Assembly (NCBI RefSeq): GCF_001458175.1
Contig: NZ_CYPW01000017.1
Span: 62,001 to 126,000, forward strand
Source: Shimia marina
GTDB taxonomy: Bacteria; Pseudomonadota; Alphaproteobacteria; Rhodobacterales; Rhodobacteraceae
Length of the DNA: 64,000 nucleotides
Direction of reading: 5' to 3'
Part shown: one piece after another, positions 8,169 to 11,063 of the stretch
Layout: each line of letters starts with the position of its first letter
How positions within the stretch are numbered: the stretch's first letter is position 1
Position numbers and translations under genes: made by a program
Notes under the pieces: generated by a model
What the model was told of the DNA's origin: nothing
The model's input: the letters and a program-made list of their open reading frames with translations, nothing else
Database searches by the model: none

Positions 8169-9290
8169 ATGTTTAAGCCCGCGATCACCGGAACCGGTGT
8201 CTTCACACCTGAGAACATCATCACCAATGACGAGCTGGTCGCCAGCTTCAACGCCTACGCCGACAAAATGAACGCAGTGAACGCCAAGGCCATTGACGCC
8301 GGCGAGATGGCGCCCCTGCAACATTCCTCCAGCGAATTCATTGTCAAAGCCTCCGGCATCGAACAACGGCACGTGCTGGACAAAGAAGGCGTCCTCAATC
8401 CCGATGTGATGCACCCGCAACTGCGCCAGCGGGACGATGATGAGCCCGGTGTGATGACCGAAATGGCACTGGACGCCTGTAAAAAGGCACTGGCTCAGGC
8501 ACAGGTGGAGGCGTCAGAGATCGATCTGGTGATCTGCGCCGCCTCCAACATGGAGCGGGCCTATCCGGCTATTGCCATTGAAATTCAAAAAGAATTGGGG
8601 GCGGGCGGCTTTGCCTTTGACATGAACGTCGCTTGCTCCTCTGCCACCTTCGGCATTCAGGCTGCGGCAGATATGGTGCGCGCGGGCTCTGTGCGCAAAG
8701 CCATTGTGGTCAACCCGGAAATCTGTTCCGGCCACCTGGAATGGCGCGATCGTGACTGTCACTTCATCTTTGGGGATGTGGCCACAGCCTCGGTGATTGA
8801 GCGCAGCGAAGACGCCAAAGGCGCGCATTTCGAAATCATCTCCACCCGCTGTGCGACGCAATTCTCCAACAACATCCGCAACAACAACGGATTCCTGCGC
8901 CGCTCACGCCCGGACGGGGTGATCGACCGCCGCGATATGCAGTTCATGCAAAACGGGCGCAAAGTGTTCAAAGAGGTGGTGCCCATGGTCTCCACCCATA
9001 TGCTGTCCCATATCGCAGAGGAGGGCATCAGCGCTGATCAACTGAGCCGCCTCTGGCTGCATCAGGCCAACAAATCCATGAATGATTTCATTGGCAAAAA
9101 GGTGCTGGGACGCACACCCGAAGACGGGGAGCAGCCCAACATTCTGCAAGACTATGCCAATACATCATCCGCAGGATCCATCATCGCCTTCTCCAAATTT
9201 TCAGACGACCTCACTCCCGGCGACTATGGCGTGATCTGTTCCTTTGGCGCCGGATATTCGGTTGGTTCGGTCCTGCTAAAGCGCCGCTGA
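8169..9290 (+). CDS. Beta-ketoacyl-ACP synthase III-like thiolase-fold enzyme
   Basis: A 373-residue FabH-like condensing enzyme. The catalytic triad is visible: Cys156 in NVACSSATFG, His298 in LWLHQAN and Asn331 in DYANTSSAGS. It is longer than housekeeping FabH (about 320 residues) because of an inserted, charged segment at roughly 28-92. It is therefore probably a specialised paralogue using an unusual acyl primer or doing a side reaction, rather than the main initiator of fatty acid synthesis. No plsX, acpP or other fab gene is adjacent. An AAGG precedes the ATG by about 7 bases, and a strong hairpin follows the stop. The substrate cannot be deduced. Confidence 0.87.
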   Translation: MFKPAITGTGVFTPENIITNDELVASFNAYADKMNAVNAKAIDAGEMAPLQHSSSEFIVKASGIEQRHVLDKEGVLNPDVMHPQLRQRDDDEPGVMTEMALDACKKALAQAQVEASEIDLVICAASNMERAYPAIAIEIQKELGAGGFAFDMNVACSSATFGIQAAADMVRAGSVRKAIVVNPEICSGHLEWRDRDCHFIFGDVATASVIERSEDAKGAHFEIISTRCATQFSNNIRNNNGFLRRSRPDGVIDRRDMQFMQNGRKVFKEVVPMVSTHMLSHIAEEGISADQLSRLWLHQANKSMNDFIGKKVLGRTPEDGEQPNILQDYANTSSAGSIIAFSKFSDDLTPGDYGVICSFGAGYSVGSVLLKRR

Positions 9291-9321
9291 TCCAGTCACA
9301 TTTGGTCACAATGATTCGAGT

Positions 9322-9346
9322 GTGCCGGGGCTGAAGCCCCTGGCAC
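9322..9346 (+). terminator. Strong hairpin after the ketoacyl synthase gene
   Basis: GTGCCGGGGC pairs with GCCCCTGGCAC around a TGAA tetraloop, giving a 10-bp GC-rich stem with one wobble pair, 32 bp after the stop. No clear T run follows, so it may act as an mRNA-end stabiliser or a factor-assisted terminator. Confidence 0.5.
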
Positions 9347-9386
9347 CTATCATTTATGACAGTTGAAATTCAAAAAACTGTTAAAA

Positions 9387-9415
9387 TTGACAGCTTTGTT
9401 AACCTAACTTTCTAA
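9387..9415 (+). promoter_or_regulatory. Sigma-70-type promoter for the downstream RNA
   Basis: TTGACA (9387-9392) is separated by 17 bases from TTCTAA (9410-9415), within an AT-rich stretch. This predicts a transcription start near 9422 on the plus strand. The spacing and the perfect -35 hexamer make it one of the best-looking promoters in the window, and no coding sequence follows it. Confidence 0.6.
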
Positions 9416-9421
9416 AGTCCT

Positions 9422-9653
9422 GACACAAAACTCCCCATCACGATGGGCTACCATCATAGGTGGATGGAGCTGTTGTCTCATCGTGGCGCTACCCCAGGTG
9501 TCCTGAGACAACAGGTTCGAGGCGCGATTTCCGCAAATCCCCGTCCGCTCTGTGCTGTCCCGTACAGAGGTTTCAATGCACACCCGTGCACAAATATTCC
9601 CGTAGGTCATTTTATGATGCAAGGGTGTTCTGGCTTCCAGAACACCCTTATTT
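9422..9653 (+). ncRNA. Candidate structured non-coding RNA of unknown family
   Basis: A roughly 230-nt plus-strand stretch lies between the promoter at 9387-9415 and a terminator-like 13-bp perfect hairpin at 9621-9649 (AAGGGTGTTCTGG / CCAGAACACCCTT) followed by TTATTT. Between them are four more hairpins: CCCAT-CACG-ATGGG (9434-9447), an 11-bp perfect stem CTGTTGTCTCA / TGAGACAACAG (9470-9514), CTCTGT / ACAGAG (9548-9569) and TGCAC-ACCC-GTGCA (9577-9590). No plus-strand reading frame starts and stops inside it. It does not look like tmRNA, 6S RNA, SRP RNA or RNase P. It sits between convergent genes, so it is not a leader. Expression is inferred. Confidence 0.5.
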
Positions 9654-9704
9654 CATGCACGTCTCACATCGCGGTTTTGGCAGCCTTCAAGACCCTAGCA
9701 AAGA

Positions 9705-10580
9705 TCAGTCTTTTCTGTACCGGAAAGTGCTGCCATGCGGCACGCCCATTTCCACCAAAACGCCGCCAACTTTTTGGTTCATCCGATGCAGGGGGTCCTG
9801 CACCAGCCCAACACTCATGGCCAGCGCTGCCAGATCCGCCCTGTTGGCCAAACCAGTCTTGGCCAACAGGTTGTTCATCCGCTGACGCACCGCAGAAACC
9901 GAAATCTCAAGCTGTTCGGCAATCACCTTGTCCTGCAGGCCAGCTCCAATCATCTCAAGCAATTCCCGCTGCTTGTCAGAGATGCTGTTACGCTGTGTAA
10001 ACTCGGCGGCAAAATGGGTCTGATATCGCTGATGCCCCATCATCGCCACCGCGTTGAGCACCCAGCCATGGGTCTGAATGATGTGGCGCATTTCGCGCTT
10101 TGAGTGGTCCCCACAGAAGGTGATCAGAGCAGCCTGCGGCGGCGCATGCAGGCGCAAAGGCACAGAAAACCCCGCCCTCAGTCCCCGCTCGGCGGCTTCG
10201 CGCAACACCGCATGCCGAGCTTCGGGCATATGATGATACTCATCGACAAACTCCAATCCGACAGCAATAGGGGTCAGATGATGCACCGCATGCGTGCGAA
10301 AATAGCTCCATTTGGCCACATCCGGATCTTCGTTAAAGGTGTTCAACCACGTGCTGTCATAGGAGGTCCGAATAAAAAGCGTGCGTTTCCAATTGGCAAA
10401 GTTATCTGCACAAATAAAATCGATGTAGGGCAGATTGAGTGCGCGCCCCACCTCCACAATCAAACCCCACACTTCCGCAGAGCTCTGTGTGGCTTCGAGA
10501 TCTGTCAAAAACCCCTGCAACAGATCAGGGGTATGTCGCTCGGCCGCCAGCAACGGCCGTCGCTGGCGTGGCCCCGCCAT
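9705..10580 (-). CDS. LuxR-type transcriptional regulator with autoinducer-binding-like domain
   Basis: A 291-residue regulator with an N-terminal autoinducer-binding-type sensor domain (about 20-180) and a LuxR helix-turn-helix at about 195-255 (LLEMIGAGLQDKVIAEQLEI, then VSAVRQRMNNLLAKTGLANR). About 35 residues follow the HTH, a longer tail than usual. In the ligand pocket the usual W-x3-Y-x8-D pattern reads W-x3-F-x8-W, so binding of a standard acyl-homoserine lactone is doubtful. No luxI synthase is present in the window. It starts 3 bp after the stop of the HTH gene upstream, so the two form an operon. A terminator-like hairpin and a candidate RNA on the opposite strand follow it. Confidence 0.84.
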   Translation of the reverse strand: MAGPRQRRPLLAAERHTPDLLQGFLTDLEATQSSAEVWGLIVEVGRALNLPYIDFICADNFANWKRTLFIRTSYDSTWLNTFNEDPDVAKWSYFRTHAVHHLTPIAVGLEFVDEYHHMPEARHAVLREAAERGLRAGFSVPLRLHAPPQAALITFCGDHSKREMRHIIQTHGWVLNAVAMMGHQRYQTHFAAEFTQRNSISDKQRELLEMIGAGLQDKVIAEQLEISVSAVRQRMNNLLAKTGLANRADLAALAMSVGLVQDPLHRMNQKVGGVLVEMGVPHGSTFRYRKD

Positions 10581-10583
10581 GGC

Positions 10584-11063
10584 TTAAACGGATTCCTCTT
10601 CCAGATGCAGCTTCATGTCCACCAGGACCCGCTGCAGCGCCACCGTCTCCTGCAAAAGCCGCTTGGCCTCCGCAACCGTGATGATCCCATCTTCGATGGA
10701 TTGATTGTATTCCGCCATCAACATGGCAAAGCGCTGACTGAGAGCAATGACATCTGAATTCACGCCGCCCTTGTCGTCAGAGTTGCGGCGACGCCCCTCA
10801 AGGTTGAGCGAATTTCCGCGCAACTCGGCCAGTGCGGCCGTCACATGCGGGTAAGAGGCCGCCTCTTCCAGCGCCGCCACCGCATCAATTGGCATGAACC
10901 GATCCGCATGTTCGTCGTGGGTGGAATAATAGCGTCCCAATGTCGCCTTGGATTTCCCTGTCAGCGCACAGGCCGCTTCAATACCTACGTCCTTGACCAA
11001 AGCCTCAGAATGCTTCTTCAGATAGCTGTCCACCACGGTCATGCACTTGTCCCAACTTCTCAT
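10584..11063 (-). CDS. Small helix-turn-helix protein, resembles phage CII-type regulators
   Basis: A 159-residue protein. Residues about 26-48 (VGIEAACALTGKSKATLGRY) read as a helix-turn-helix, and a C-terminal helical region at about 100-159 could oligomerise. It resembles short proteins annotated as phage regulatory CII-like, but I cannot name a family with certainty. The ATG at 11061-11063 has GAGG 9 bases before it; an internal ATG at codon 8 is the alternative start. Repeated ATGGGAAA motifs lie directly upstream. It is the first gene of an operon with the LuxR-type regulator, suggesting joint control of the same targets. Confidence 0.72.
   Translation of the reverse strand: MRSWDKCMTVVDSYLKKHSEALVKDVGIEAACALTGKSKATLGRYYSTHDEHADRFMPIDAVAALEEAASYPHVTAALAELRGNSLNLEGRRRNSDDKGGVNSDVIALSQRFAMLMAEYNQSIEDGIITVAEAKRLLQETVALQRVLVDMKLHLEEESV

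Follow-up and report, generated by a model that had tools for sequence, protein, structure and literature searches.

The window analysed here is a stretch of 64,000 nucleotides from contig NZ_CYPW01000017.1 of Shimia marina, whose genome groups with Shimia, and it was compared with 24 other genomes of the same genus. The region of interest sits between two convergent genes, one for a beta-ketoacyl-ACP synthase III (KAS III) with its stop at 9290 and one for a LuxR-type receptor with its stop at 9705, a placement that an earlier note on this DNA, made from the letters alone, had read correctly. The locus comprises the following features, with coordinates counted from the first letter of the window:

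8169 to 9290, plus strand: KAS III gene of the PRK07515 type (597.6 bits, cut-off 304), the upstream neighbour of the RNA in Shimia
9322 to 9346, plus strand: terminator-like hairpin after the KAS III gene, from a generic scan of the window
9347 to 9362, no strand assigned: lux-box-like palindrome 1, CTATCATTTATGACAG, from the alignment of upstream DNA and from the spacing and window box scans
9378 to 9393, no strand assigned: lux-box-like palindrome 2, CTGTTAAAATTGACAG, which contains TTGACA and lies 31 bp from box 1
9449 to 9454, plus strand: inferred -10 hexamer TACCAT (TAGCAT, TAATCT and similar in relatives)
9462 to 9654, plus strand: structured non-coding RNA from its inferred start to the terminator tail, from the RNA alignment A2, covariation and the RNA model R1
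9462 to 9467 with 9541 to 9546, plus strand: P1, the 5' strand GGAUGG paired to CCGUCC (helix 1; 95.8% of cells paired, two-sided changes in 3 of 6 pairs)
9469 to 9516, plus strand: P2 hairpin with the apical loop UACCCCAG at 9490 to 9497 (helices 2 and 3; two-sided changes in 14 of 14 pairs)
9548 to 9569, plus strand: P3 hairpin with the loop UGUCCC at 9556 to 9561 (helix 5; 95.0% paired)
9578 to 9589, plus strand: P4 hairpin, GCAC-ACCC-GUGC (helix 6; 94.7% paired)
9606 to 9618, plus strand: small GUC-AUUUUAU-GAU element with a U-rich loop (helix 7; 88.3% paired)
9621 to 9654, plus strand: terminator-like hairpin and tail (helix 8; two-sided changes in 8 of 12 pairs)
9705 to 10580, minus strand: LuxR-type receptor of 291 aa, convergent to the RNA (PF03472 and PF00196 above cut-off, with fold matches)
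10584 to 11063, minus strand: CII-like phage-type regulator upstream of luxR (phrog_101, E 6.4e-12)

KAS III and LuxR flank the RNA in all 17 loci found by BLASTN among the genus-mates, and the adjacency of KAS III implies no link to the RNA. A reading of the RNA as the trailer of the KAS III gene was rejected, since other genes lie upstream of it elsewhere and KAS III occurs without the RNA in five genomes. The hairpin at 9322 to 9346 may insulate the RNA gene; sites like it also turn up in shuffled sequence (mean of 1.2 per region). The CII-like protein, which also matches the YmfL family below cut-off, is encoded by the probable operon partner of luxR. In one relative (L013) the gap between the RNA and luxR is longer than elsewhere. 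An insert of roughly 0.75 kb lies there, at about 1611 to 2400 of the locus, and holds a 229-aa frame that by eye resembles an AhpD/carboxymuconolactone-decarboxylase-type protein.

The hairpins and the 13-bp stem that the earlier note had described between the two stops are present in the letters, and the segment 9422 to 9653 folds at -90.4 kcal/mol, against a mean of -64.9 kcal/mol for shuffles (z -5.47, with none of 200 shuffles as low). In the alignment of 20 RNAs (A2), 18 rows of which were used to derive the structure, 91.6% of cells are paired, compared with 82.2% in shuffled controls and no more than 50.8% in slid ones, although the slid comparison is biased towards a structure taken from these very rows and the kinship of the rows can itself beat shuffles. 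For these reasons the two-sided changes are the stronger argument: they are found in 30 of the 50 base pairs versus 16.4 after shuffling, a count that none of 500 shuffles reached. Both stems in which compensatory changes had been anticipated, those of P2 and of the terminator, carry them. P4 shows no two-sided change among the A2 rows and is absent from one locus of the genus (L039). The terminator stem pairs 13 bp (9621 to 9633 with 9637 to 9649) and is followed by ATTTC; relatives carry longer T runs, and the generic scan misses the terminator at 9621 to 9649 because the tail has too few T for the rule of that scan.

The loops of the RNA are better conserved than its stems. CCCCAG in the P2 loop is invariant in all 20 rows of A2, and TCCCGT is likewise present in 20 of 20; conserved unpaired C-rich motifs, the feature by which a C-rich-loop trans-acting sRNA is recognised, are found here. 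In agreement with the claim that the region lacks coding capacity, no conserved small open reading frame occurs in the 20 aligned RNAs, and among the ten closest rows the pattern of substitutions lacks a three-base periodicity. A TTG-started frame of 21 aa with a Shine-Dalgarno-like site is present in six of the 20 RNAs, the window's not being among them, and a small-protein reading was rejected as there is no conserved frame. Searches against Rfam 15 returned no family at or above the gathering threshold in the window or in the loci of 10 relatives, in line with the earlier impression that it matches no housekeeping RNA, and a permissive search of 9280 to 9720 gave two matches (E 0.49 and 4.1) that look like chance. 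The RNA appears to belong to an uncatalogued family. Based on the covariation, the conserved terminator, the different upstream genes in other genera and the insert before luxR in L013, the central proposal of the earlier note, an independent, non-coding and highly structured RNA, is strongly supported.

Its promoter has to be placed differently. The earlier note had assigned a consensus promoter, TTGACA-N17-TTCTAA, and an RNA start near 9422. The letters are there. TTGACA, however, forms the right half of a palindrome, CTGTTAAAATTGACAG, and TTCTAA lacks conservation as a -10, relatives keeping a TAGCAT/TAATCT-like hexamer instead; nor is the proposed promoter listed by the generic scan. Because relatives conserve this -10-like hexamer at the aligned place, the probable start of the RNA is near 9462, and the first hairpin from the 5' side in the fold begun at 9422 most likely belongs to the promoter DNA. 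In each locus the hexamer was chosen by hand, one locus (L040) being given another offset, and the -35 of the window is poor.

Upstream of this hexamer lie two 16-bp palindromes with the consensus CTGTCA-N4-TGACAG. LuxR-type proteins bind dyad-symmetric lux boxes and mostly activate (PMC10134790), and our label "lux-box-like" draws on this dyad symmetry and on the general form of such sites. In all 20 Shimia-group loci the boxes are 31 bp apart and the second begins 84 to 85 nt before the inferred RNA start; as the pairs were pre-chosen as the best at spacing 31, the independent part of this result is the constant distance to the hexamer. To assess the spacing itself, a matrix trained on the 20 loci was run on other luxR loci with 63 spacing values allowed, whereby 42 of 43 unique loci were scored (L070 was too short) and L078 was dropped as a repeat of the training locus L039. 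A spacing of exactly 31 was best in 16 of these 41 loci, the next commonest values occurring twice each. These 16 all belong to a set of 28 loci in which LuxR shares at least 55% identity with that of the window, compared with none of the 13 below 55%; the remaining 12 of the 28 do not peak at 31, and some show no visible RNA.

Within the 64-kb window, boxes 1 and 2 are the two best box matches. At a tolerance of up to three mismatches, five of the 25 genus genomes have the double site, each at one place (reversed control, 0). The other 20 give no match, and most luxR loci there are too diverged for this threshold. A strict double-box pattern gave no match in 394 genomes, a null that is uninformative because the pattern also misses box 1 of the window. 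The spelling CTG-N10-CAG has matches in the open-access literature that, by title, seem not to be about lux boxes. The centre of box 2 lies about 76 bp before the inferred start. LuxR-type activators act from upstream sites, and the position of box 2 fits activation of this kind.

The receptor itself carries both domains that define the LuxR type, the autoinducer-binding domain (PF03472, 36.3 bits, cut-off 23) and the GerE helix-turn-helix (PF00196, 34.7 bits, cut-off 23.5). An AlphaFold2 model built with 33 sequences (pLDDT 77.7, pTM 0.71) has QscR, TraR, RhlR, LasR and SdiA as its best fold matches. An invariant Thr-Pro at positions 103 and 104 stands, by eye and with reference to the residue numbering of TraR, where Asp-Pro would be expected; the receptor may have another residue in place of the Asp conserved among acyl-homoserine-lactone receptors, and the ligand may be unusual. 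Each of the 25 genus genomes has LuxI-type matches. In the 20 genomes that bear luxR, no such match shares a contig with it at a distance of 150 kb or less, and in the window's genome the matches are on contigs C27 and C9 with luxR on C17. By position, with no adjacent LuxI, the receptor is a solo. Genes for acyl-homoserine-lactone production have been reported in Shimia strain SK013 (PMC4818494).

Two alignments of LuxR loci were used. A1 contains, besides the window, 18 further LuxR loci out of 19 (L025 was left out), and A3 the window and 32 of 44 loci, omitting L042, L044, L045, L047, L050, L052, L054, L063 (stop codon), L070 (truncated), L072, L081 and L082. The LuxR frame is interrupted by one in-frame stop in L063 (573 to 1406), L102, L105 and L109, of which L063 and L102 are one locus and L105 repeats L070; in such genomes the receptor may be decaying. 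In Thalassococcus halodurans (L081, L082) a much diverged LuxR (37 to 38% identity) adjoins the same CII-like gene. The region past the LuxR stop holds one box-like sequence, GTATAAGAAATTACAG, at a distance of about 380 bp, and the receptor has perhaps been replaced at the same locus.

The occurrence of the RNA was analysed across the genus. BLASTN finds the RNA in 17 of the 24 genus-mates and in none of 35 other genomes searched, as a single copy in the window's genome, and two further RNA loci (L039 and L040) were reached via LuxR and read by eye. LuxR is present in 20 of the 25 genus genomes (E 1e-30), and the RNA model R1 detects the RNA in the same 20 (E 0.1). As all 20 positives are training rows of R1, only the five absences are an independent result of the model. 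In three genomes (G015, G019, G016) R1 has additional matches that are full-length but weak. These overlap with coding regions, their ends fall at terminators, and they were rejected as paralogous RNAs. In the five genomes lacking both luxR and the RNA, the KAS III and CII-like genes are adjacent, with 20 to 95 bp between the aligned ends, and on the KAS III tree the luxR-less state needs three changes, two of them forced by well-supported branches. The CII-like gene occurs in 24 of the 25 genomes, including these five, and is missing from G014, where luxR and the RNA are both present. The RNA therefore follows luxR and not its other neighbours. Together with the paired lux-box-like sites, this joint presence and absence suggests that LuxR is probably the functional partner of the RNA; the earlier note had rightly placed the RNA next to a LuxR operon and had missed this partnership.

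Beyond the genus, LuxR is found in 28 of 394 family genomes, or 27 of 393 genera, at E 1e-40. At nine loci of other genera, all of them best at spacing 31, a long upstream frame ends 9 to 113 bp before box 1. These frames are argE-like (L060, L061, L064), carB (L067, L071, L073), gyrB (L062), rimO (L069) and yqgE (L084), which indicates that luxR and the box pair stay together in different settings. R1 itself reports matches in eight of 394 genomes (E 0.01), mostly weak, and is convincing only in the two genus genomes and at the S. biformata locus (G252). At the expected place of LuxR loci it scores 26.4 bits in L074 and 11 to 17 bits in L077, L080, L083, L061 and L067, where plain terminators elsewhere reach 18 to 23 bits. 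Of 16 loci outside the training set, 8 have CCCCA at 10 to 60 nt downstream of the inferred start versus 1.08 expected, a count adopted after a stricter one, which required a hairpin loop and gave 4 of 16 versus about 1 expected, and after the sequences had been seen. Judged by its place, boxes and loop, the RNA outside the genus is likely homologous or analogous.

The structure and conservation of the RNA, the fixed geometry of the box pair, the domains of LuxR and the joint presence of luxR and the RNA were computed here, and the reading we favour adds to them a chain of predicted steps. The LuxR-type receptor would bind an acyl-homoserine-lactone-like signal; the signal-bound protein would then bind the sites at 9347 to 9362 and 9378 to 9393 and activate, rather than repress, the promoter with the -10 TACCAT (9449 to 9454). 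The putative transcript, non-coding, about 193 nt long and with the 13-bp terminator at its end, would act in trans, its C-rich loops (UACCCCAG, UGUCCC and ACCC) pairing with G-rich Shine-Dalgarno regions, and the mRNAs so paired would be repressed. Candidate target sites of the form CTGGGGA-N(4-9)-ATG number 38 in the window's own genome versus 4 for the backwards pattern, GGGGA being itself Shine-Dalgarno-like, and in 13 of 30 loci examined a frame of at least 60 aa begins at that ATG; none of these candidates stands out as a convincing target. We consider this full mechanism, a two-part cassette in which a solo LuxR drives a dedicated trans-acting sRNA with C-rich loops, to be fairly likely.

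Two other readings accept a real RNA and differ in its control. The boxes could bind another regulator, a different LuxR or the CII-like protein, with luxR merely linked: binding of LuxR is here a prediction, and the LuxI-type genes elsewhere in all 25 genomes suggest further quorum-sensing regulators. This is unlikely given that five of the 25 genomes have the CII-like gene with neither RNA nor luxR, that G014 retains the RNA although it lacks this gene, and that luxR and the box pair occur together beside different genes. It is quite improbable that the sign of control is other than activation, with signal-free LuxR repressing the RNA or the tandem boxes looping the DNA, so that the RNA would fall or rise with loss of signal. 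Two boxes far upstream of the start could indeed serve looping, but sites upstream of a -35 usually activate. LuxR-type proteins, moreover, are mostly activators (PMC10134790).

The remaining two readings concern what the RNA does. The location between convergent genes and the hairpin at the end would suit a structure without a regulatory role of its own, a bidirectional terminator region or the 3'-UTR of a neighbour; the loops are conserved more than the stems, however, the 5' end pairs within the RNA, the promoter geometry is fixed while the neighbours change, and the flanking genes occur without the RNA in five genomes, all of which leaves this reading scarcely credible. A real and LuxR-controlled RNA might instead bind a protein through its repeated C-rich loops and pair with no mRNA, as three hairpins with similar loops could be repeated protein sites. 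CsrA sponges, by contrast, carry GGA loops, from which these C-rich ones differ. Since UCCC loops are also documented to reach Shine-Dalgarno regions (PMC4132741), we regard protein binding as a poor prospect and retain the mRNA-pairing cassette as the preferred reading.

A receptor coupled to an sRNA is already known as a kind of system. In Vibrio the genes for the receptor VqmA and the sRNA VqmR are adjacent. The same pattern is seen in Shimia, where the sRNA gene lies beside the receptor gene and the two are jointly present. VqmA, a LuxR-type receptor for DPO, induces the trans-acting, Hfq-associated VqmR (PMC6451090), a precedent for a LuxR-type receptor acting through one sRNA, and in both cases the sRNA has a Rho-independent terminator (PMC6451090). 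Shimia differs in its PF03472 receptor, the tandem palindromes at 31 bp, the convergent gene order and the host group; the likeness to VqmR is one of mode of action, relatedness being judged via Rfam 15 only, where the Shimia RNA has no match. The Qrr sRNAs of Vibrio are likewise an sRNA output of quorum sensing, but they are driven by LuxO-P (PMC6451090), whereas the Shimia RNA is single-copy in the window's genome and apparently driven by LuxR boxes. With regard to pairing, LhrC uses its UCCC sites to bind close to the Shine-Dalgarno region, and RNAIII and RsaE are cited likewise (PMC4132741). These and other C-rich-motif sRNAs share several unpaired CCC motifs with the Shimia RNA; LhrC, RNAIII and RsaE belong to low-GC Gram-positive hosts, and pairing by the C-rich loops is for the Shimia RNA a prediction.

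On the receptor side, the Shimia protein resembles the LuxR solos, proteobacterial acyl-homoserine-lactone-type receptors without an adjacent LuxI, in combining PF03472 and PF00196 with no LuxI nearby, and differs from them in that its output appears to be an RNA. The main text of one review (PMC10134790) makes no mention of small RNA, sRNA or Shimia, and among the matches listed in the open-access literature, none describes a LuxR-controlled sRNA in the Roseobacter group or Rhodobacterales. The Shimia RNA, the box geometry and the coupling to an acyl-homoserine-lactone-type solo receptor appear to be new. Tentatively, and with more doubt than belief, we propose that in the Roseobacter group luxR and the sRNA form a portable cassette, gained or lost as a unit, in which a solo acyl-homoserine-lactone-type receptor has one non-coding RNA as its main or only direct output. 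In every genome in which the tandem site could be scored, it occurs just once. The direct activation of protein genes is what LuxR-type receptors are mainly known for. If the proposal holds, a population signal would be read out as post-transcriptional control. The pair makes direct predictions, namely two boxes, one start site and C-rich seeds, and its conservation in marine Roseobacter-group bacteria would hint at what one group of solo receptors does and would provide LuxR-type receptors with an RNA output on a par with Qrr and VqmR of Vibrio.
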